From contig WHST01000055.1 of NCBI GenBank assembly GCA_009379955.1, forward strand, positions 1-39,743: a stretch of DNA of 39,743 bases, given 5' to 3'. The translations under genes and the position numbers were made by a program. The stretch comes from Streptosporangiales bacterium. Its GTDB lineage: Bacteria; Actinomycetota; Actinomycetes; Streptosporangiales; WHST01. The notes beneath the pieces were generated by a model. That model searched no databases, was not told where the DNA came from, and worked only from the letters and a program-made list of their open reading frames with translations. Positions 14,762-37,714 of this stretch are shown piece by piece. Positions within the stretch are counted from its first letter, which is position 1; each line of letters opens with the position of its first letter.

Positions 14762-17716
14762 TCAGGCGGGCTCGCCCGCGTGGGCGGTCGCCTCGGCGAG
14801 CGCACGGCGGGCGCGGCGGAGGATCATCGGGACACCGGACTCCTCGGCCAGGCGTGACGCGCGCTGTGCCGATCGGACGGCGAGGTCGTGGTTGCCGCGG
14901 ATCGACTCGATCCTGCCGATGGTGAGGGCCTCGACCACGAGACCGGCGTGGTGGTCGGAGCTGCGGTAGTACGCCGCCGCGTCGGCCAGCAGCTCGTCGG
15001 CCGCGGGCCAGTCGCCGCGTCGTGCGGCGACGACCGCGCGACCGAGACGGAGCACCGCGCTGCCGTTGTCGTCGCCGATCCCGCCGGTGATCGCGAGCGC
15101 CTCGGTGAGGTCCTCGTCGGCCTCGTCGAGCCGGTCGAGCGCGAGCAGGGTCTGTGCGCGGTCGTGCAGCATCTGCGCGCGCGTTCTCGTCGCGCCGAAC
15201 TCCTCTTGCTCCGCCAGCGCCGCCGCGAAGACCGGGAGCGCCTCGGCGTACCTGTCGTCCTCGAGCAGCGCCTCGCCGAGCCGGTAGAGCGTACGGATGT
15301 GCAGGTCGCGGCCGGCCTCGCCCGCCTGCGGCAGCAGTCCGCGCAGCTCGGTGACCGCGCGGTCGAACTCCGTGGCGTGGTACGCGACGTACGCCCGCTC
15401 GAGTCCGACGGCGACCTCCAGGCGCACGTCGTCGGTCGCCTTCGCGGCCTCGACCGCGCGCTCGGTCACCGCGCGGACCTTGCGCCACTCGTCACCTCGC
15501 TGCAGGTACGCCGAGCTCAGCGCGAGCAGCAACCTGACTTGCAGGTCGGGGGTCGCGCCCATGGCGCCGACCCGCTCCAGCATCCGGATGCGCTCGTCGT
15601 CGTACCTGCGTAGACCGAGGTAGGCGTCGCAGCGCAGCGTGAGGAGCGCCGCCAGGTCGGGATCGACGGCCGCGGCGAACTCGGCGGCGGCCACCAGCTG
15701 GTGCCGGGACGCGTCGAGCCAGGCGAGGGCGTCGTCGTCGATCGCGGCCGCCGGTTCCGGTGGGGTCTCGACGCCGGCCGAGGGCTGGTCGCCGGGCAGC
15801 CGTCCGTGCGGGATGAGCGCATCGGCGCGCTCGGCCAGACCCAGCCAGGTGCGAAGGACGCGGGAGACCGCCGCGGTCCGGTCCTCCTGGCTCTCCTCGG
15901 CCTCGACGCGTTCCCGTGCGACCAGGCGAACGAGCTCGTGTAGCCGGTACGTCGCGCCCCCTGCGGGATCGTCGCCGTCGTCCTCGACGAGGTGGGCGGC
16001 GGCGAGGTCGTCGAGCAGCGTGTGCGCGGTGCCCTCGTCGGTGTCGAGCAGCGGCGCGCCGATCCAGTCGGGGAAGTCCGGTCGCGGGAGCAGCGCCAGC
16101 CGCCGCAGCAGCCGCCGCTGGTCGTCGTCGAGCGAGCGCCAGCTGAGCAGGAGCGTCGCCCGGACGGCGAGGTCGCCCGTCTGCAGGACGTCGAGTCGGC
16201 GGTGCTCGTCGGTGAGCCGGTTGGCGATCCTTGCCAGCGCTCCCCGGCGTCCCGTCGCCGTCACCTGCGCGGCGATCACCCTGATCGCGAGCGGCAGCCG
16301 GCCGCACAGGTCGACGACGACCCCGGCGGCGACGTCGTTGCCGTGGTCTCCCTGCGCGTCGCCCACGAGGCCGGCGAGGAGCGCCAGCGCGTCGTCCTCG
16401 TCGAGTGTGTCGACCGCCGTGTGATGCGCGGAGACGAGATCGGTCAGCGCCGGCCGGCTCGTGACCACGACACCGCAGCCGCTCGTCGGCGGCAGCAACG
16501 GGCGTACCTGCGCGGCGTCGGCGGCGTCGTCGAGTACCACGAGCACACGCCGGTCGGCGACGCAGCTGCGGTACAGCGCGGCACGCTCCTCGAGGCCGGA
16601 CGGCATCGCCTGGCCGTCGATGCCGAAGGCGCGCAGGAACGCGGCGAGCACCTCGCTCGGATCGACCCGGTGTCCCGCCGTGCCGCCGAGCGACGCGTAG
16701 ACCTGGCCGTCGGGGAACGACGTGCGCGCGAGGTGGGCGAGGTGCACGGCGAGCGCGGTCTTGCCGATTCCGCCGCCACCGTGCAGGCAGAGCACCGTGG
16801 GCGCCGTACGCGTGTCGTCCGGGGTCAGCCGGGCGAGCAACGACCGTACGTGCTCCTCCCGCCCGACGAACGCCGACAGGTCTGCGGGCAGCTGGCGCGG
16901 GACCGGCAGCGCCGTGGACGGCGTGGCTGCGGGCTCCGCGGTGACGAGCAGGTCGGAGTCGCCCTCGAGGATCCGTTGCTCGAGCCGCCGCAGCTCCTGT
17001 CCCGGGTCGAGGCCGAGCTCGTCGGCGAGCCGGCGCCTGCCGTCCTGGTAGGCCTGCAGGGCGTCGGCCTGCCGGCCGGCGCGGTGCAGCGCGAGCATCA
17101 GGTGCGCGCGAACGCGGTCACGCCGCGGGTAGCGGGAGACGAGCTCGACGAGCTCGGGCACCAGCTCGGCGTCGGAGCCGAGCGCGAGCTCGCCCTCGAT
17201 CCGGCCCTCGACGGCGACGAGCCACTCCTGGGTGAGGCGGTCGGCGGCGACGTCGAGCAGCGGCGTGCTGACGTCCTGGAGGGGCTCGCCACGCCACCGG
17301 TCGAGCGCCTGCCGGAACGTCGTAACCGCGTCGGCGGCGTCGCCCGCGCGCAGCGCCGTCGTCGCCAGCTCCACGAGTCGGCGGAACTCCTCGAGGTCGA
17401 CCGTCGCCGACTCGGTCGACAGGACGTAGCCGGGACGCCGCGTCACCAGCAGGGCGCGGGGCTCGGGCACCCCGGCCGCGGCGAGGCGCTTGCGCAGTGC
17501 GGCGACGCACGCCTGGATCTGCACCGCCGAGGTCGGCGGCGGGGTGTGCCCCCACACGGCGTCGGCGAGATGGTCGGCGCTGACGACCTCACCCGCGTGC
17601 AGCATCAGGCAGCCGACGATGGCGCGTTCCCGATGACCACTGAGGTTGACCGGTCGGTCGTGGACGCGTATCTCCAGCGGACCCAGGAGTCCGTACGAGA
17701 CGGCGGCGCCCGTCAT
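14762..17716 (-). CDS. AfsR/SARP-family regulator with NB-ARC and TPR domains (copy 1)
   Basis: A 984-residue multidomain activator. Residues 8-100 form the winged helix of the OmpR/SARP type (LLGPLEIRVHDRPVNL to RRPGYVLS). Residues 105-250 are the bacterial transcriptional activation (BTAD) domain. The NTPase module follows, with the P-loop GGGGIGKT (313-320), Walker B VLVVLDD (391-397) and a GLPLAIRV-type motif as LCGRLPLAIRV. The C-terminal 350 residues are TPR-like helical repeats. AfsR-type proteins bind near the -35 of secondary-metabolism promoters and respond to nucleotide and protein signals. The ATG at 17716 overlaps the stop of the upstream paralogue as ATGA, so both are one transcript. 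No target operon is identified; the polyketide cluster is 11 kb away. Confidence 0.92.
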   Translation of the reverse strand: MTGAAVSYGLLGPLEIRVHDRPVNLSGHRERAIVGCLMLHAGEVVSADHLADAVWGHTPPPTSAVQIQACVAALRKRLAAAGVPEPRALLVTRRPGYVLSTESATVDLEEFRRLVELATTALRAGDAADAVTTFRQALDRWRGEPLQDVSTPLLDVAADRLTQEWLVAVEGRIEGELALGSDAELVPELVELVSRYPRRDRVRAHLMLALHRAGRQADALQAYQDGRRRLADELGLDPGQELRRLEQRILEGDSDLLVTAEPAATPSTALPVPRQLPADLSAFVGREEHVRSLLARLTPDDTRTAPTVLCLHGGGGIGKTALAVHLAHLARTSFPDGQVYASLGGTAGHRVDPSEVLAAFLRAFGIDGQAMPSGLEERAALYRSCVADRRVLVVLDDAADAAQVRPLLPPTSGCGVVVTSRPALTDLVSAHHTAVDTLDEDDALALLAGLVGDAQGDHGNDVAAGVVVDLCGRLPLAIRVIAAQVTATGRRGALARIANRLTDEHRRLDVLQTGDLAVRATLLLSWRSLDDDQRRLLRRLALLPRPDFPDWIGAPLLDTDEGTAHTLLDDLAAAHLVEDDGDDPAGGATYRLHELVRLVARERVEAEESQEDRTAAVSRVLRTWLGLAERADALIPHGRLPGDQPSAGVETPPEPAAAIDDDALAWLDASRHQLVAAAEFAAAVDPDLAALLTLRCDAYLGLRRYDDERIRMLERVGAMGATPDLQVRLLLALSSAYLQRGDEWRKVRAVTERAVEAAKATDDVRLEVAVGLERAYVAYHATEFDRAVTELRGLLPQAGEAGRDLHIRTLYRLGEALLEDDRYAEALPVFAAALAEQEEFGATRTRAQMLHDRAQTLLALDRLDEADEDLTEALAITGGIGDDNGSAVLRLGRAVVAARRGDWPAADELLADAAAYYRSSDHHAGLVVEALTIGRIESIRGNHDLAVRSAQRASRLAEESGVPMILRRARRALAEATAHAGEPA

Positions 17717-20700
17717 GCGTGTCCCGCCGGCCGTGCCTCATGGTCGCGCGACGTTGCCTCTGGACGTTCCCGCTCTCCGGCACGCTGGTACGCCCGCGAC
17801 AGCGAGAAGCGCACCCGCCGGGCGGTCAGCGGCTGCCGTTCCCGCTCGCACAGCGACAGCACCCTGGTGAGGGTGCGGATGGCCGCGACGTGCCGGCCGC
17901 GCAGTGACTCGAGACGTCCGCGCTGGTGCTCGGTCGTCATCTCGTCGCCCGGGCTGTTGTCGCGGCCGAAGATCTCGGCGGCCCGGGCGAAGGCGTCGTC
18001 GGCCTCGCGCCACCGGCCCTGCTGGGCGAGGGCCTCGGCGAGGTGGATCGACAGGTACGCGATGCCGGTGTCGTCGGTGAGCGGCTCCACGATGGCGAGC
18101 GCCCGGCGCAGCTGGCGCTCGGCCTCCGCTCCGCGGTCGACGTCGAGGAGCCGCAGCGCGTAGTGGAGCAACATCACCCCGGTGCCGCGGGTGTCCTCAC
18201 CGCCGTCCCGGCCGTCCAGTGCCTCCGCGAAGAGCTCGATGGCATGCTGCGGCTGGCCGGACTGTGCGAGGGCGTTGCCCAGCAGGGTCAGCGTCTGCCG
18301 GTGGAGAACGGTGTCGGTCTCACGGGCGACCGGAAGCAGCAGCTGCAGCTCGTCGACGGCAGTGTCGAACTCGGTCATGACGTACCGGTACCACGCGACC
18401 TGTTCCCTGGCCTTGACCTCGAGGTACGTGTCGCCGCTGTCGCGGGCGAACGGAACGGCCCGCTCGGCGAACGGCAGCATCTCGTCGGGCGGGGCGCCCG
18501 CCTGGCCGTGTGCGGTGGCGAGCTGGAGCAGCAGGCGGGCACGCAGGCCCGGCGTCACGTCGTCCGACCGCTCCGCGGCCTCGACCGCCCTGATCCTGAG
18601 GTCGGCGACGTTGCGGATCGAGAAGAGGCCGTCGAGTCGCGTCGCCAGCCGCGCGGCGACGTCGCCATCGCGCGTCGCCGCCTGCTCCACCGTCGACGTC
18701 AGCTGGTCGTGCCAGCGCTCGAACCAGGCCAGAGGGTCGCCTCGCGCCGACTCGGTCGCCTGCGGTGGGGCACCGCCGCTGAGGGCGAGGCCGCGGTTGA
18801 CGGTGCTACCCGCGGCGATCGCCTGGTCGGTGGCCTCGGCGAGCCCGAGCCAGGCGTGGTGCAGGCGGCCGAGCGCCGCGTCGCGCGTGGTGTCGTCCTC
18901 CTCCTCGTCGAGCCGTTCGCGGGCGACGAGACGGACCAGGTCGTGCAGCCGGTACGTGGCGCGCCCGGCCGCGTCGGCACTGTCCGGCTCGATCAGGTGG
19001 ACGGCGACGAGCGTCGCGAGGAGGTCGTGACCGGCGTCCTCGTCGGAGTCCAGGAGGGGCGCGGCGACCCAGCGGGGGAAGTCCGCGTGGGGGATCAGCG
19101 CAAGGCGTCGCAGCAGGCGCCGCTCGTCGGCGGTGAGGTGCTCCCAGCTCAGCAACAGGGATGCGCGGACGGCGAGGTCGCCGACCTGTAGCAGGTCGAG
19201 GCGCTGCCGCTCGTCGAGCAGGCGCCCGACGAAGCGGTCCACCGCACGCGGTGACGCCCCGGTGAGCCGTGCCGCCACGACGCGGATGGCGAGCGGCAGC
19301 CCGCCGCAGAGCTCCACGATGCGACTCGCCGCGATGAGCGCGCCGTCCGTGCCGGTCGACGCGTGGAGCAGCTCGACGCCGTCGGACGAGCCGAGTGGTC
19401 CGACGCTCTCGTGCACCGCGCCGGCGAGGTCCCGGAGAGGTCGGCGACCGGTGATCAGCACCGCGCTGTCACGGCTCGGCGGCAGCAGCGGACGGACCTG
19501 CCTCGTGTCCGCGGCGTCGTCGAGGACGACAAGGACGGCGCGGTCGGCGAGGCGGCTGCGGAAGAGTGCCGCGCGCTCGTCGAGGCCCGCGGGAACGGCG
19601 TCGCCGCCGAGGCCGAGTGCACGCAGGAACGCGGCGAGCACGTCAGCGGGGTCGGCCGGGCGTCCACCGGTGCCGCCGAGGTGCGCGTAGAGCTGCCCGT
19701 CGGGGAACGACCTCGCGACGCCGTGACCCACGTGTACCGCGAGCGCGGACTTGCCCACCCCGCCTCCTCCGTGCAGGCAGACGACGGCCGGCGCGTCACC
19801 CGTCCGGCCGGTGAGCCGTGCTCGCACGGCGTCGGCGTGCCGGTCGCGGCCGACGAGGTGCGGGACGTCCGCGGGCAGCTGACGCGGGACCGGCAGCTCC
19901 GGCCGCGCCGAGGGCGGTTCGGTCCCCGTCGCGACGAGAAGGGAGCTGTCGTCACGGAGCATCCGCCGGTGGAGGTCGCGCAGCTCGTCGCCGGGATCGA
20001 GGCCGAGCTCCTCGACGAGGAGCTCGCGTCCGTCCTGGTATACGCGCAGTGCGTCGGCCCTGCGTCCGGCGCGGTACAGCGCGAGCATCAGCTGACCCCT
20101 GAGGTGCTCGCGGAGCGGGTGCTCGCCGACGAGGGCGAGGAGGTCGGGGACCAGATCCGCATGCCCGCCGAGCGCGAGCTCGGCGTCGAGACGGCCCTCG
20201 TCGGCGAGCAACCACTCCTCGATGAGGCGCTCCGCGGCCGCGTCGAGCTCCGAGGCGTCGATCCCGGCGAACGGCACGTCGCGCCACAGGCCGAGCGCAC
20301 GGACGAACAGGTCGCGCGCCCCGGCGTGGTCGCCTCGTCGCGCCGCGGTCTCGGCGTCCCTGGAGAGCGCGCGGAAGTCGGCGAGGTCGGTGGTGACGCG
20401 GCCGGTGAGCACGTAACCGGGCGGCCTGGTGGCGACGACGGCGCGGGCGTCGGTGACGCCGGCGGCGGCGAGTCCCTTGCGGATGCGCGAGACGCAGTTC
20501 TGGATCTGCACGGCGGCGGTGGGCGGGGTCGCCGGGCCCCAGACGACGTCGGCGATCTGGCTCGCGCCGACGATCTCGCCCGTGCGCTGCAGCAGCAGCG
20601 CGACGATCGCGCGTTCCCTGTGCCCCTTGAGCTCGACGGGCCGGTCGCCGACGCGGACCTCGAGGGAGCCGAGGAGGAGGAACGCCACGTCGGGATCGTC

Positions 20701-20727
20701 CGGTCGGTCAGCCCCGTTGGGGTCCAC
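17713..20727 (-). CDS. AfsR/SARP-family regulator with NB-ARC and TPR domains (copy 2)
   Basis: A 1004-residue paralogue of the next gene downstream, with the same domain order throughout: winged helix (about 16-108), BTAD (115-258), P-loop GGGGVGKS (320-327), Walker B VLVVLDDAAD and TPR tail. The linker before the NTPase domain is nearly the same in both (PVPRQLPAD). The GTG at 20727 is preceded by GGGAGGTGA. It is 128 bases below the end of the EmrB-type exporter gene, on the same strand. The region between holds a near-palindrome (TGCAACGTTGTA at 20841-20852) that could be regulatory. Two intact, non-identical copies in an overlapping tandem suggest an old duplication with possible heteromer formation. 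Confidence 0.92.
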   Translation of the reverse strand: MDPNGADRPDDPDVAFLLLGSLEVRVGDRPVELKGHRERAIVALLLQRTGEIVGASQIADVVWGPATPPTAAVQIQNCVSRIRKGLAAAGVTDARAVVATRPPGYVLTGRVTTDLADFRALSRDAETAARRGDHAGARDLFVRALGLWRDVPFAGIDASELDAAAERLIEEWLLADEGRLDAELALGGHADLVPDLLALVGEHPLREHLRGQLMLALYRAGRRADALRVYQDGRELLVEELGLDPGDELRDLHRRMLRDDSSLLVATGTEPPSARPELPVPRQLPADVPHLVGRDRHADAVRARLTGRTGDAPAVVCLHGGGGVGKSALAVHVGHGVARSFPDGQLYAHLGGTGGRPADPADVLAAFLRALGLGGDAVPAGLDERAALFRSRLADRAVLVVLDDAADTRQVRPLLPPSRDSAVLITGRRPLRDLAGAVHESVGPLGSSDGVELLHASTGTDGALIAASRIVELCGGLPLAIRVVAARLTGASPRAVDRFVGRLLDERQRLDLLQVGDLAVRASLLLSWEHLTADERRLLRRLALIPHADFPRWVAAPLLDSDEDAGHDLLATLVAVHLIEPDSADAAGRATYRLHDLVRLVARERLDEEEDDTTRDAALGRLHHAWLGLAEATDQAIAAGSTVNRGLALSGGAPPQATESARGDPLAWFERWHDQLTSTVEQAATRDGDVAARLATRLDGLFSIRNVADLRIRAVEAAERSDDVTPGLRARLLLQLATAHGQAGAPPDEMLPFAERAVPFARDSGDTYLEVKAREQVAWYRYVMTEFDTAVDELQLLLPVARETDTVLHRQTLTLLGNALAQSGQPQHAIELFAEALDGRDGGEDTRGTGVMLLHYALRLLDVDRGAEAERQLRRALAIVEPLTDDTGIAYLSIHLAEALAQQGRWREADDAFARAAEIFGRDNSPGDEMTTEHQRGRLESLRGRHVAAIRTLTRVLSLCERERQPLTARRVRFSLSRAYQRAGERERPEATSRDHEARPAGHA

Positions 20728-20855: not shown

Positions 20856-22487
20856 CTACTCGGTGAGGGCGGGGACGTCCTCGGCCGGGCGCGACGCTGG
20901 CCTGGTGGTCTCCCGGCCGGTGCGCAGCGGCACCTCCTTGAGGAAGAACGCCACGACGAGGGCGACGACGATGAACGGGATGCCGGCGAGGTAGACGTCG
21001 TCGATCGCCTGCGAGAACGCCGTGAGTACGAGGTGCTTGACCGGTTCCTCCAGCTGCTGCAGCGCCTGGATGTCGTTGGCGTCGACGGCCGGTGGCTTCG
21101 CGCCGCCGGGCAGCGAGAGGCCCTCCATCTGCTCGGCCAGGTGGGCCGCGAGCCGGTTGCTGAGCACGGCGCCGAAGATGGCCGTGCCGATCGCCCCGCC
21201 CATCTGCCGGAAGAAGACCGTCGAGCTCGTCGCCGAGCCCATGTCGCGCATCTCCACGGAGTTCTGCACGGCCGTGACGATCGTCTGCATGGTGAAGCCG
21301 AGCCCCGCGCCGAAGACGTACGCGAAGATCGCGGCCTGCCAGTACGGGGTGTCGACGGAGAGCCGGCTCATCAGCCCGAGCGCGACGAGCAGCGTGGCAG
21401 CGCCGAGGATCGGGTAGATCTTGTACCTGCCCGTCCTGGAGATGAGCTGGCCGGACCCGATCGATGTGGTGAAGATGCCGACCACCATCGGCAGCATCGC
21501 GAGACCCGAGACGGTGGGCGACATGCCCATGACCGCCTGCAGGTAGAGCGGGAAGAAGACGATGCCGCCGAACATCGCGACGCCCGCCAGGATGGCGAAC
21601 AGGTTGCCGATGCTGAAGACCGAGTTGCGGAACAACCGCATCGGGATGATCGGTTCGGGTGCGCGGCGCTCGACGAGCACGAACACGACCGTCAGCGCCA
21701 GCGAGCCGCCGAGCAGGACCAGCGACAACGGGCTGAACCAGCCGTTCGCGGTGCCCGACCAGTTGAGGTAGAGCAGCAGCAGGCTGACGCCCGCCACGAT
21801 GACGGTGGCGCCGAGGTAGTCGACCTTGTGCGACCTGGTGACGTGCGGCATGCGCAGCGCCAGTGTCGTGACGACGAGGGCGGCGAGCCCGATCGGGACG
21901 TTGATGAAGAAGATCCAGCGCCAGCCGGGGCCGTCGGTGAAGAACCCGCCGAGCAGCGGGCCGGCCACGCTCGCGACGCCGAACACGACGCCGAAGTAGC
22001 CCTGGTAGCGGCCGCGCTGACGCGGCGGGATGACGTCCCCGACGATCGCGAGCGCGATCGACATCAGGCCGCCGCCGCCGATGCCCTGCAGCGCGCGGAA
22101 GCCGATCAGCTGTCCCATGTTCTGGCTGAGACCGGCGAGCACCGAGGCCACCAGGAACGTGCAGATCGCGATCTGGAAGATCAGCCGCCGACCGTAGAGG
22201 TCGGAGATCTTGCCCCACAGCGGGGTCGTGGCGGTGGCCGTGAGCAGGTACGCGGTGACGACCCAGGACAGCTGGTCGAGGCCGCCGAGGTCGCTCACGA
22301 TCCGCGGCAGCGCCGTGCCGACGATGCTCTGGTCGAGCGCCGCGAGCAGCATGCCGGCCATCAGGCCGACGAGGGTCACCAGGATCTGCCGATGGGAGAG
22401 GTAGCGGGGTGTGTCGGGGTCGAGTGCGGGGTCGGAGGTGGACGCGGCCGCCCGCGAGCTCTGGTCGCGGTCGACGTGGTCGGTCAC
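20856..22487 (-). CDS. MFS drug:H+ antiporter, DHA2 (EmrB/QacA) family
   Basis: A 543-residue exporter with 14 expected membrane helices. The first helix carries LVGLMAGMLLAALDQSIVGTALPRI, typical of DHA2 (DxxxVxxALP-like motif C region). The loop 2-3 motif is GKISDLYGRRLIF and the helix 5 motif is GPLLGGFF. The start is GTG 22487, with GGAGG in the small ORF just before it; the frame stays open to 22526 but the extra residues are the out-of-frame reading of the small ORF. It is encoded below a MarR regulator and a 37-codon ORF, each overlapping the next, so the MarR protein probably represses its own exporter. Confidence 0.93.
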   Translation of the reverse strand: MTDHVDRDQSSRAAASTSDPALDPDTPRYLSHRQILVTLVGLMAGMLLAALDQSIVGTALPRIVSDLGGLDQLSWVVTAYLLTATATTPLWGKISDLYGRRLIFQIAICTFLVASVLAGLSQNMGQLIGFRALQGIGGGGLMSIALAIVGDVIPPRQRGRYQGYFGVVFGVASVAGPLLGGFFTDGPGWRWIFFINVPIGLAALVVTTLALRMPHVTRSHKVDYLGATVIVAGVSLLLLYLNWSGTANGWFSPLSLVLLGGSLALTVVFVLVERRAPEPIIPMRLFRNSVFSIGNLFAILAGVAMFGGIVFFPLYLQAVMGMSPTVSGLAMLPMVVGIFTTSIGSGQLISRTGRYKIYPILGAATLLVALGLMSRLSVDTPYWQAAIFAYVFGAGLGFTMQTIVTAVQNSVEMRDMGSATSSTVFFRQMGGAIGTAIFGAVLSNRLAAHLAEQMEGLSLPGGAKPPAVDANDIQALQQLEEPVKHLVLTAFSQAIDDVYLAGIPFIVVALVVAFFLKEVPLRTGRETTRPASRPAEDVPALTE

Positions 22488-22597
22488 GAGCCGTCCTCCA
22501 AAGTGAGCATCGCAGCGAGTACGCAAGGCGGGGGCGAGGGATGTGCCGTAGGTGAGCGAGGAGCGGGGCGGAGGAGGCCGGCGGGGAACACGGTCAT
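22478..22597 (-). repeat. Dispersed coupling cassette, copy 1
   Basis: About 120 bases between the MarR and exporter genes that recur at 37029-37145. On the coding strand the first 44 bases match at 39 positions. The last 40 bases, beginning CGCTGCGATGCTCACTTTGG and running nine bases into the exporter gene, match at all but one. The middle is unrelated. The matches include third codon positions, so conservation is at the nucleotide level. Confidence 0.85.
22484..22597 (-). CDS. Small ORF, 37 aa, coupling MarR to exporter
   Basis: An open frame starting at ATG 22597, which overlaps the MarR stop as ATGA, and ending in a TGA that overlaps the exporter start as GTGA. Product begins MTVFPAGLLRPAPRS and ends AAMLTLEDGS, with a Pro-rich middle. 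A second frame at 37029-37139 shares both ends (MTAYPADLLRSAPRS and AAMLTLEDGS). The exporter's Shine-Dalgarno GGAGGA lies inside its last codons, so a ribosome finishing this frame would reinitiate. It may be a real peptide, or only a translated spacer; its own start has no strong Shine-Dalgarno and would depend on coupling to MarR. Confidence 0.55.
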   Translation of the reverse strand: MTVFPAGLLRPAPRSPTAHPSPPPCVLAAMLTLEDGS

Positions 22598-23052
22598 CTG
22601 TGCTCCGTTTCGGGGACCTGCTGGTCGAGGGTGTTGGCGAGACGGTGGGCGAGGGCGCAGAGCGTGCGGATCTCGTCCTCGGACCAGTCCGCCATCGCGG
22701 CGTGGATGACGTCGTTGCGCGCCCGGGTGGCGGCGGCGAGCCGTCGCCTGCCCTTGGCGGCGAGCACGAGCTTCGCGGCGCGCCTGTCGTCGGGATCCTC
22801 GGTACGCACGACGTACCCGGACTTGACCAGCCGGGCGACGTGCCGGCTGACCGTGGAGGTGTCGAGGCCGACCTGACCGGCCAGCTCGGAGACCCGGCAG
22901 ACGCCGTTCTCCCGCACCCGGTGCAGGAGGAGAACCGCCCACGCCTCGTCCGGCGTGCGCGCCGTCACCGTCTTGAGCTGCCGGCCGATCCGCATGAGCG
23001 CGACGGGGAGACCCTGCTCGAGCTCCACCGGGGCCGAGTTCGTTGCTTGCAC
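22594..23052 (-). CDS. MarR-family transcriptional regulator
   Basis: A 152-residue winged-helix regulator from GTG 23052; no strong Shine-Dalgarno precedes it, and ATG 22995 is a shorter alternative. The DNA-binding part is VSELAGQVGLDTSTVSRHVARLVKSGYVVRTEDPDDRRAAKL, with the MarR wing residues DxRxxxL-like (DDRRAAKL) around residues 88-95. It is the first gene of an operon with the small ORF and a DHA2 exporter, the classical arrangement for drug-responsive derepression. Confidence 0.88.
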   Translation of the reverse strand: MQATNSAPVELEQGLPVALMRIGRQLKTVTARTPDEAWAVLLLHRVRENGVCRVSELAGQVGLDTSTVSRHVARLVKSGYVVRTEDPDDRRAAKLVLAAKGRRRLAAATRARNDVIHAAMADWSEDEIRTLCALAHRLANTLDQQVPETEHR

Positions 23053-23373
23053 CCCACAACAATAGGCAGGCGGATGGCAGGGACCGGCGACCCGTTTGCC
23101 AACCCTTGACCGACCCGCCGTCCCGTTCGGGCGCTCGGTGCAGCACCGGTCACCGGATGTCGCCGCGCGCGCTGCCCTGGCGCGCCACCCGCGTGCCTCT
23201 CCCGGCCTAGCCCGCGCGCCTCCCCAGGCGCCGCCCACCGGCGAATGATCATGTTCACCTGGTGAAGGCGTCCTTCACATGGCACATGCACCGTGGGAAG
23301 TGAGCATTCACCCACTGAACATGATCATTCGCCCGGGTCATTCGCGCGAGGGGGTCCGCCGCCGCTCCCGCGG
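23053..23373. other. Non-coding region between ROK and MarR genes
   Basis: A 321-base stretch without a credible gene. It must hold the MarR-exporter promoter (minus strand) near 23053-23110 and the end of the ROK transcript. Apart from the large palindrome at 23240-23333, listed separately, the section 23150-23235 is plain GC-rich sequence. Confidence 0.6.
23240..23333. repeat. Nested 94-bp palindrome with 18-bp perfect arms
   Basis: The arms GGCGAATGATCATGTTCA (23240-23257) and its exact complement TGAACATGATCATTCGCC (23316-23333) enclose 58 bases. Inside and at the inner edge are further dyads: TTCACCTGGTGAA (23254-23266), GTGAAGG-CGT-CCTTCAC (23262-23278) and GTGAGCATTCAC (23300-23311). 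The motif TTCACC/GGTGAA recurs several times. It is much less GC-rich than its surroundings. It could be a miniature inverted-repeat or REP-like element, a cruciform, or a terminator for the ROK gene. Confidence 0.8.
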
Positions 23374-36138: not shown

Positions 36139-36378
36139 CGGAGCTCCTCGGCGGCGGCGATCGGTCGGTAAGTGTCTTCCGGGCAGACTACCCATGACGT
36201 CTCGGTGCCCGGGGCGGTCCGGTATCTCAGAACACGGCTCGTACGACGGGGATACGCTGCGCGATCGCGGTGTCGCCCGGCGGCCCGAGCACCGGATCTG
36301 GCCGCTTGCGGACCGGTGCTGGTGGCGACGTGGTCAGTGGCGTACACCGGCACGGCCGTTCTGGAAGAATCCGTCGTT
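36139..36378. promoter_or_regulatory. Intergenic region between pepC and Cys-pair protein operon
   Basis: About 240 bases with no convincing gene. On the minus strand TAGTCT (36190-36185) is a likely -10 for the peptidase, giving a leader of about 40 bases. On the plus strand a frame is open from 36172 into the next gene, but its residues are Arg/Pro-rich and unlike a protein start. GAAGAAT near 36364 may be part of the promoter for the gene at 36379. Confidence 0.4.
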
Positions 36379-37032
36379 GTGACCCGACCCGATCACCCGT
36401 GGCCGAGCCCCTACCGGACCCTCGCGGCCGTCCTCGTGACGGCGGCGGCGTTCGTCGTCGGCACGCTCGTCGTCGAGCCGAGCGTGTACGCGCCGCTGGT
36501 CGACACCTCGGCCCCGCGACCGTTGGCCCGGCCGTGCGCCGGCGTCACGGAGGCGACCGTGACCGCTGCCGTGACGGCCGCGCCTCGCCGCGACGTCTCC
36601 GACGACTCGGACGGCTGGGCCTGGACGTGTCGTTGGCGGTCGACGGACGCCGCGACGGTCCGGCGCGAGAACCCCACCCTCTACGTCTCCGCCGAGCGGG
36701 TCACCGCCTCGTCGGGGCTCGACCTGGAACGGGCGGCGGCGCACAGGTACGGGGAGATCGCCACCGAGCAGCTCGGGAGCACGCGGTTCGGTGAGGACAC
36801 GCCCGCGGCGCGGGCCGCGGGGCTCGGCGTCGTCCGGCTCGCGGGCCTCGGCGACCGCGCGCAGGTCTACGTCGACTCGACCGACACGGGTACGTTCGGC
36901 CGTCAGGCGAACGTCGTCGTGGTCCGCGGCGACGTCATCGTGACCACCCGCTTCCTCGCGTACCGCACGCCGGGGACCCCGGTTCGCGAGACGGCCCTAC
37001 GCGCCGCCCGGGAGGCCGTGGAGGCCCTATGA
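36379..37032 (+). CDS. Membrane-anchored Cys-pair protein A
   Basis: A 217-residue protein from GTG 36379. A single membrane segment at residues 14-32 (TLAAVLVTAAAFVVGTLVV) is followed by an extracytoplasmic domain carrying C53-x30-C84-R-W86. The same C-x(30,31)-C-x-W signature, always preceded by Thr, recurs in the next two genes. The layout resembles the actinobacterial DUF3558-type secreted domains but there is no lipobox, and the family assignment is tentative. The stop overlaps the start of a small ORF as ATGA. No Shine-Dalgarno is obvious, so the message may be leaderless. Confidence 0.72.
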   Translation: MTRPDHPWPSPYRTLAAVLVTAAAFVVGTLVVEPSVYAPLVDTSAPRPLARPCAGVTEATVTAAVTAAPRRDVSDDSDGWAWTCRWRSTDAATVRRENPTLYVSAERVTASSGLDLERAAAHRYGEIATEQLGSTRFGEDTPAARAAGLGVVRLAGLGDRAQVYVDSTDTGTFGRQANVVVVRGDVIVTTRFLAYRTPGTPVRETALRAAREAVEAL

Positions 37033-37139
37033 CCGCGTATCCCGCCGACCTCCTCCGCTCCGCTCCTCGCTCGGCGGGCGTATTGGCACCCGGAGCGCTC
37101 CGAACCGCTGCGATGCTCACTTTGGAGGACGGCTCATGA
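37029..37139 (+). CDS. Small ORF, 36 aa, coupling proteins A and B
   Basis: ATG 37029 overlaps the stop of gene A; the TGA at 37137-37139 overlaps the start of gene B (ATGA at 37136). The product starts MTAYPADLLRSAPRS and ends AAMLTLEDGS, matching the small ORF at 22484-22597 at both ends while the middles differ (here Gly/Ala/Leu-rich). No signal peptide or membrane helix is evident. It could be a functional micropeptide, or translation through it may only serve to open and use the Shine-Dalgarno of gene B. Confidence 0.55.
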   Translation: MTAYPADLLRSAPRSAGVLAPGALRTAAMLTLEDGS

Positions 37140-37145
37140 CCGACC
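37029..37145 (+). repeat. Dispersed coupling cassette, copy 2
   Basis: Second copy of the element at 22478-22597. It runs from the stop codon of protein A's gene to nine bases inside protein B's gene. The shared 3' part contains GGAGGACGGCTC directly before the start codon of B. The shared 5' part contains CCTCCTCCGC, which is complementary to that GGAGGA. Confidence 0.85.
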
Positions 37146-37714
37146 TCGGTTACGTCCCCCCGCCGGAGGGCACGCACCATCGCCGGTCGGCGCTCGCCGG
37201 CTACGCGCTCATCGGGCTGCTCCTCGGCAGCGTGCTCTCGTACAACGCCCGGACGTCGAACGACCCGCCCGACGAGTGCGACGACGTGATCGCCTCGTAC
37301 GACGTCGAGGCGCTGATGCGTACCCGAAGCGAGGTGACCCCGACCGAGGAGGAGTCGGGCGCGTCGCTCACCTGCCGGTGGCAGTCGGCCGGGGCCGGCG
37401 ACGACGAGACGCCGCGGCGGGCGACGCTGTCGGTCACCGTGGCGCGGAACTGGTGGTTCGGAGCCGGCGAGGCGGTCGACCGGGTGCGCGACGGTGGCGT
37501 CGAGGGGCACCGCCTCACCCTCGACGGAGTCGGCGACGAGGCCGTCGTCGACGCCGGCAGGGCCGTGGACGGCAGGTGGGCCACGGAGGTCGGAGTCCGT
37601 GAGGGAGGGACGTCGATCCACGTCAGCTACGTCGTCGACGGCGACGACGGCCCGACGGCCGCGTACGTCGGCGAGTTGGCCGCGCGCCTGTGCCTGCAGG
37701 AGAACGTGCTGTGA
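37136..37714 (+). CDS. Membrane-anchored Cys-pair protein B
   Basis: A 192-residue protein started at ATG 37136, with GGAGGA eight bases upstream inside the small ORF. One membrane segment at residues 18-37 (SALAGYALIGLLLGSVLSY) anchors an outer domain with C48-x31-C80-R-W82. Relation to proteins A and C is seen in the shared topology, the TC-[RQ]-W signature and the later conserved block with VGDEA (LDGVGDEAVV; compare LAGLGDRAQV in A and TPGDEAYAV in C). The stop overlaps the next start as GTGA. Function unknown; such domains may bind ligands or partners at the cell surface. Confidence 0.75.
   Translation: MTDLGYVPPPEGTHHRRSALAGYALIGLLLGSVLSYNARTSNDPPDECDDVIASYDVEALMRTRSEVTPTEEESGASLTCRWQSAGAGDDETPRRATLSVTVARNWWFGAGEAVDRVRDGGVEGHRLTLDGVGDEAVVDAGRAVDGRWATEVGVREGGTSIHVSYVVDGDDGPTAAYVGELAARLCLQENVL

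Follow-up and report, generated by a model that had tools for sequence, protein, structure and literature searches.

The stretch of DNA analysed here (the window) comprises positions 1 to 39,743 of contig WHST01000055.1 from a Streptosporangiales bacterium. It contains two copies of a short element, one on each strand, as an earlier note on the same DNA had described; their exact lengths are 110 and 107 bp. Copy 1 (subfamily B; 22488–22597, minus strand) runs from a left ATGA to ...GGCTC and lies between the genes of a MarR-family regulator (22594–23238, minus strand; PF01047, E = 7e-14), whose stop falls within the left ATGA, and of an MFS transporter (20856–22487, minus strand; PF07690, E = 1.5e-55), which starts with GTG at 22487. 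Copy 2 (subfamily A; 37029–37135, plus strand), the top-scoring copy in the genome model search, is flanked by two ORFs without Pfam or NCBIfam match, both on the plus strand: an upstream ORF of 286 aa (36172–37032), again with its stop within the left ATGA, and a downstream ORF of 192 aa (37136–37714).

The two copies have the same organization. The left end is an ATGA holding the TGA of the upstream ORF (the ORFs end at 22594 and 37032), and the right end is the base preceding the GTGA (copy 1) or ATGA (copy 2) of the next ORF, so that both elements start on the upstream stop and end on the downstream start, as was claimed for them. Each is filled by a mini-ORF of the expected 36–37 codons: 37 codons plus TGA in copy 1 (22484–22597, minus strand) and 36 codons plus TGA in copy 2 (37029–37139, plus strand), the TGA overlapping the GTG or ATG start of the next gene, respectively. 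A subterminal inverted repeat has its 5′ arm at 22573–22582 (minus strand) in copy 1, GCCGGCCTCC, and at 37044–37053 (plus strand) in copy 2, GCCGACCTCC. The 3′ arm is GGAGGACGGC in both copies (22490–22499, minus strand; 37124–37133, plus strand) and includes the Shine-Dalgarno sequence GGAGG of the downstream gene. In a repeat search of the window the ends of the two copies match over 53 nt at 83% and over 43 nt at 95%.

The element is widely dispersed in its own genome. A 20-nt core of the 3′ end has 43 matches with at most two mismatches in the 6.6-Mb genome, compared with none for a reversed-pattern control. A sequence-only model made from 43 copies, with which 150 candidates were scored, finds 78 places at E ≤0.001, and an HMM run on the fetched places also recovers 78. 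The copies are spread over many contigs of the draft genome and over both strands, and most of them are single, with three tandem pairs (L001, L029 and L127). The 74 near-full-length copies were measured, and four partial matches (L033, L147, L148, L149) were excluded. Two subfamilies, A of 107 nt and B of 110 nt, differ in the middle as well as in length. In one of the partial matches (L147:2006–2058, minus strand) an upstream reading frame, which overlaps the next start, appears to end in the 3′ tail of the element (C-terminal ...GMLAPEDGS), a fusion that may represent domestication.

The placement seen in the window is general in the family. A right-hand DTGA, the TGA of which terminates the mini-ORF, is found in 69 of the 74 copies; at least 60 open codons follow the right-hand DTG in 65, and three more run into a tandem copy. 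A left DTGA is present in 60 of 74, and in 47 of 74 the left end contains the end of an upstream ORF that is 60 or more codons long. The GGAGG of the element is located 7 nt ahead of the downstream start; the suggestion that the element brings a new Shine-Dalgarno sequence is thus borne out. Starts are not the sole places of insertion or retention, as six copies lack a gene directly behind them. A left DTG is present in 64 copies, 46 of which stand behind a long upstream ORF and 18 of which do not. A TANNNT hexamer within 16 nt upstream is present in 7 of these 18 as against 4 of the 46 operon copies (Fisher, 0.008), and in six of the seven it ends 6–7 nt before the start, as leaderless mRNAs would show. 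Several of the 18 have a TGATG stop/start overlap instead.

Once the right boundary of L146 is corrected, the frame is open through the element in 71 of the 74 copies, in the single useful frame and with a length of 3n+2 (107 nt in 39 copies, 110 in 28, 104 in three and 137 in one); the same length rule holds for the shortened partial copies L033 (47 nt) and L149 (26 nt), each of which runs into a DTGA. The dispersed element proposed in the earlier note is therefore neither confined to the window nor usually out of frame, and reading through the operon is preserved as that note supposed. The three copies with a broken frame (L036, L037 and L144) all lack a downstream gene. A gene or tandem copy stands behind 68 of the 71 intact copies, and its absence from 3 of 71 intact and 3 of 3 broken copies differs significantly (Fisher, 3e-4).

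In the variable middle of the 71 copies (735 codons) the three frames contain 0, 13 and 1 stops, few being seen in frame 2 as well. When the middles are shuffled one by one, 11.1 ± 3.1 stops are expected, compared with 0 in the useful frame; under a null that keeps codon-position composition 9.95 are expected, and none of 5000 draws reached 0. A column permutation of the frame test gave P = 0.0007 for subfamily A (39 copies) and P = 0.11 for subfamily B (28 copies), for which, taken by itself, the result is weaker.

An open frame in 71 of 74 copies, together with peptide ends that look conserved, would also be expected of a true family of small proteins of 36–37 aa encoded between operon genes. 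This explanation is very unlikely, as amino-acid sequence does not appear to be under selection: pN/pS is 0.97 in subfamily A and 1.17 in subfamily B. The earlier note had asked for constraint to be compared at the two ends, and there the ratio is 1.23–1.52, again without amino-acid constraint. The matching protein ends to which it drew attention do match, but they are better read as translated conserved DNA, since the inverted repeat and the Shine-Dalgarno sequence explain the nucleotide pattern of the ends. In addition, the range of lengths, 71–110 nt in relatives and 47 and 26 nt in the coupled remnants, would entail peptides that differ widely. With pN/pS about 1 a peptide gene was rejected. 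Where a peptide gene or a coupling module had been offered as alternatives, it is the coupling module that fits, as the frame is kept and the amino acids are not; selection seems to act on the passage of ribosomes and not on the product made.

Evidence for insertion comes from sites that are empty in relatives. At the ATGA overlap of rimO and pgsA in one genus (g8) of another family of the same order, an 83-nt copy is present in four genomes (G049, G937, G950, G951), whereas the same junction is empty in five (G012, G033, G092, G132, G940). There is one DTGA when the site is empty and two when it is filled, with no host bases lost. The names rimO and pgsA are taken from family matches, the RimO piece being below the cut-off since the fragment is cut. 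Copy 1 of the window is absent from the congeneric genome G001, where its flanks abut (...GAGAGCTGATGACGGACGTCGACC...). These sites support the insertion-like nature that had been ascribed to the element. A wider comparison with 0.95 Mb of G001 by blastn gave 11 flank pairs, some of which may be paralogues; the element is in none of the eight intervals that were read, the long intervals L129, L027 and L036 lying outside these eight, and the comparison is base-precise at the window site alone. Synteny by tblastx yielded mostly chance pairs in this GC-rich DNA, and blastn was used for that reason.

The same sites bear on the possibility that the copies reflect segmental duplication, an assembly artefact or gene starts shared by homologues whose leaders are similar. 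A draft genome of 225 contigs leaves some room for such errors, but the copies lie on many contigs and both strands, those in the window have unrelated neighbours, and related elements exist in other genomes. The clean empty sites refute this explanation, to which we attach a practically negligible probability. Matches to copy 2 were also sought among plasmids and phages; neither search gave any, and an origin from either was rejected.

Insertion into a short target might be expected to leave a duplication. For 58 of the 74 copies (those without a DTG on both sides, or with a right side resembling another element, were dropped) the two ends were compared, and within DTGACN they match more often than under permutation at positions 0, 3 and 5 (P = 0.002, 0.012 and <0.001); at position 5 the match is limited to 28 of the 58 pairs. 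Agreement at positions 6–17 is not above permutation in the same pairs. Matches are in excess at position −5 too (27 vs 22.6, P = 0.013; 24 positions tested, uncorrected), although a duplication would not be expected to extend there. The agreement of the ends may be a trace of a duplication of 4–6 bases, in a signal that is not clean.

Related elements were found in other genomes, as a search suggested in the earlier note was meant to establish. A first model (R1) matched 8 of 249 genomes of the order, of which six contain elements on reading; the matches in G047 and G132 are not elements. Full searches at E ≤0.01 gave 28 places in G001, 2 in G002, 10 in G003 and 1 each in G049 and G092. With a second model (R2) there were matches in 11 of the 345 genomes searched from the order and in 7 of the 394 from the class; two of these seven are doubtful (in G599 the copy read has the core alone, and the match in G422 is weak). 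As these broad searches score 9–15 candidates per genome, misses are likely. Among 44 loci outside the own genome, an ORF ends at the right boundary in 37, the boundary is unclear in six, and the element at L090 is 110 nt on reading. Lengths in relatives span 71 to 110 nt; the copies in G003 are 71, 74, 83, 89 and 92 nt, all 3n+2. Five apparent lengths of 59 nt arise from inner start codons, and four of these copies read as 110 nt. One locus in G407 (L204:1501–1602) has its 3′ core expanded by in-frame 12-nt units, so that MLTS is repeated; at 98 nt it is still 3n+2.

The arms of the inverted repeat, GCCGNCCTCC and GGAGGNCGGC, covary. In the own genome both sides have changed in 6 of 10 pairs, compared with 1.2 in shuffles (0 of 500), and there are 10 covarying cells compared with 2.5 (0 of 500). 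With 33 copies drawn from six genomes, both partners have changed in 10 of 14 pairs, with 46 cells vs 20.9 in shuffles, and sliding the partner by 1–3 columns lowers the number of cells to 3–15. Since GGAGG lies within the stem, this covariation could also be that of a cis-regulatory hairpin which hides the downstream Shine-Dalgarno sequence, making the element a regulated attenuator and not a tolerated insertion. Other properties of the stem make this rather unlikely. The number of further pair types in the 33 copies is not above that in shuffles (21 vs 19.2), six copies folded singly have folding energies no better than shuffles (z −0.97 to −0.01), and Rfam 15 gives no match in the window at the gathering score. 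Moreover, 8–10 of the 10 stem pairs are preserved in the six copies without a downstream gene, with compensated changes in the three of these whose frame is broken. A coupling role alone does not, then, account for the stem. The weak folds and the retention of the stem in these copies led us to reject an RNA attenuator as the sole function. Most likely the inverted repeat is a signal for mobility, with the Shine-Dalgarno sequence inside it, and it may have a role in coupling besides.

An architecture of this type is found in the mycobacterial interspersed repetitive units (MIRUs), for which PMC12548453 cites Supply et al. (1997). The earlier note knew of no described element of this kind, a statement that does not hold, since MIRUs are described in PMC12548453 as apparently mobile elements that insert at start codons and have an internal ORF coupled to the gene at −4 spacing. 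The present element shares these features. It is a dispersed repeat with tens of chromosomal copies (78 matches), has both ends on DTGA stop/start junctions, contains an ORF in phase between two DTGA (71 of 74) and, at rimO/pgsA, has inserted into a DTGA leaving DTGA at both ends. Tandem copies are common to both. The MIRU units of 77 and 53 bp given in PMC4213456 and PMC2453075 are also 3n+2, and MIRUs likewise stand ahead of leaderless genes: M. bovis Mb3239c has a 77-nt 5′ UTR consisting wholly of a MIRU, and its orthologue in M. marinum is leaderless, according to PMC4128351.

MIRUs were also located by sequence. Among 297 genomes of the genus to which Mycobacterium sp. PS03-16 (G602) belongs, 143 contain a MIRU core, and a reversed control gave none among the matches listed. 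DTGA lies close on both sides in 42 of 50 MIRU-core copies (30 loci) and in none once the flanks are shuffled; at L340 three 53-bp units precede a response-regulator-like start. The presence of the core in 143 of 297 genomes is wider than would be expected from the statement in PMC4213456 that MIRUs between senX3 and regX3 occur in M. leprae and the M. tuberculosis complex only.

With the same architecture and DTGA on both sides, the present element could be the MIRU family proper, spread to another order. We consider this improbable, because in the coding orientation the similarity of MIRU to four present elements is not above shuffles (P = 0.14–0.42; simple nucleotide shuffles of one MIRU unit). 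Local scores on the opposite strand are 23–30 (P = 0.000–0.016, uncorrected for eight tests), but these alignments are weak and fall in two different registers for different elements. Membership by sequence was rejected on the coding-orientation alignment. The present element further differs in being longer, with a highly variable middle, in occurring in another order and in being mostly in single copies. To judge from its organization, it works like a MIRU and is not to be classed as one.

Other known systems resemble the element in part. A repeat that is common between genes of Modestobacter, Geodermatophilus and Blastococcus (Geodermatophilaceae; L223–L302, among which are a few others), with the core CGCTCCTCG..CGCTC.CT.CGATGCT and sometimes in tandem with periods of about 72–83 bp, shares a GC-rich core with the compact 83-bp form of the element. 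However, it is not at gene starts: DTGA lies within 40 nt in 5 of 87 core matches, and one of these five, in a Streptosporangiales MAG (L231), has an ORF behind. These matches were for this reason rejected as a wide spread of the element. Rickettsia palindromic elements are also mobile and leave reading frames intact, but these palindromic repeats enter the genes themselves and become a portion of the protein, whereas the present element is a separate ORF between genes. In the engineered bicistronic design a short ORF delivers a ribosome (PMC12548453). Its translated leader ORF brings ribosomes to the gene as proposed here, but it is artificial and immobile. No prior description outside mycobacteria appeared among the open-access papers listed.

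Taken as a whole, the element is a MIRU-like, translational-coupling mobile element of Streptosporangiales, whose family is distinct in sequence from MIRU. It is very probably a small non-autonomous mobile element that inserts at DTGA start sites, mostly four-base operon overlaps, and in which the frame and not the peptide is selected. Insertion, its target and selection on the frame can be read from the sequences compared here. Translation of the mini-ORF, reinitiation or coupling, and an enzyme that mobilises the element are what we infer from them, coupling from the anatomy and from the selection on the frame.

Insertion at a DTGA, where the stop TGA lies inside the start, leaves a DTGA at both ends. 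The left DTGA retains the upstream stop and opens the mini-ORF behind the old start region, and the mini-ORF runs in frame to the TGA inside the right DTGA, behind the GGAGG of the element. In the mechanism that we propose, the insertion would be nearly harmless because a ribosome ending the upstream gene would restart on the mini-ORF, read through it and restart on the downstream gene. Since a break would uncouple the next gene, selection would favour copies with an open frame and a length of 3n+2. The covarying inverted repeat would most likely be the signal for a trans-acting transposition machinery; because it pairs with the Shine-Dalgarno sequence, it may also tie initiation at the downstream gene to translation of the mini-ORF. 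We identified no enzyme that would mobilise the element and know of none for MIRUs.

The present data supply numbers for the proposal made for MIRUs, indicating that selection maintains translatability and not the product. They also add a second such family, outside mycobacteria, with a distinct sequence and clean empty sites; harmless relatives could thus be used to study the target rule, the mobilising enzyme and what such an insertion costs. For annotation they carry a warning, since such genomes would contain dozens of small 'hypothetical' ORFs, 36–37 codons long, that are not genuine protein genes. A broader idea, which is tentative and on balance doubtful, is that elements at stop/start junctions are a general actinobacterial way of life. 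They would have had separate origins here and in mycobacteria, perhaps on the two strands of a single ancient intergenic repeat core rich in GC, and would owe their movement to a transposition system not yet recognised, with DTGA and the subterminal inverted repeat as its recognition sites.

Further features were observed in the window. Next to the MarR gene, between its start and a ROK-family gene, lies an imperfect inverted repeat of 43 nt (23240–23333; 79%, 8-nt gap), a possible operator or terminator. Two adjacent, overlapping genes on the minus strand (14762–17716 and 17713–20727) encode BTAD/NB-ARC/TPR regulators of 984 and 1004 aa; two stretches of 300 nt are 71–73% identical between them, and the pair probably arose by tandem duplication. 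Near the left end of the window, at 181–264, there are nested GC-rich inverted repeats based on CCCCAGCGGGGG.
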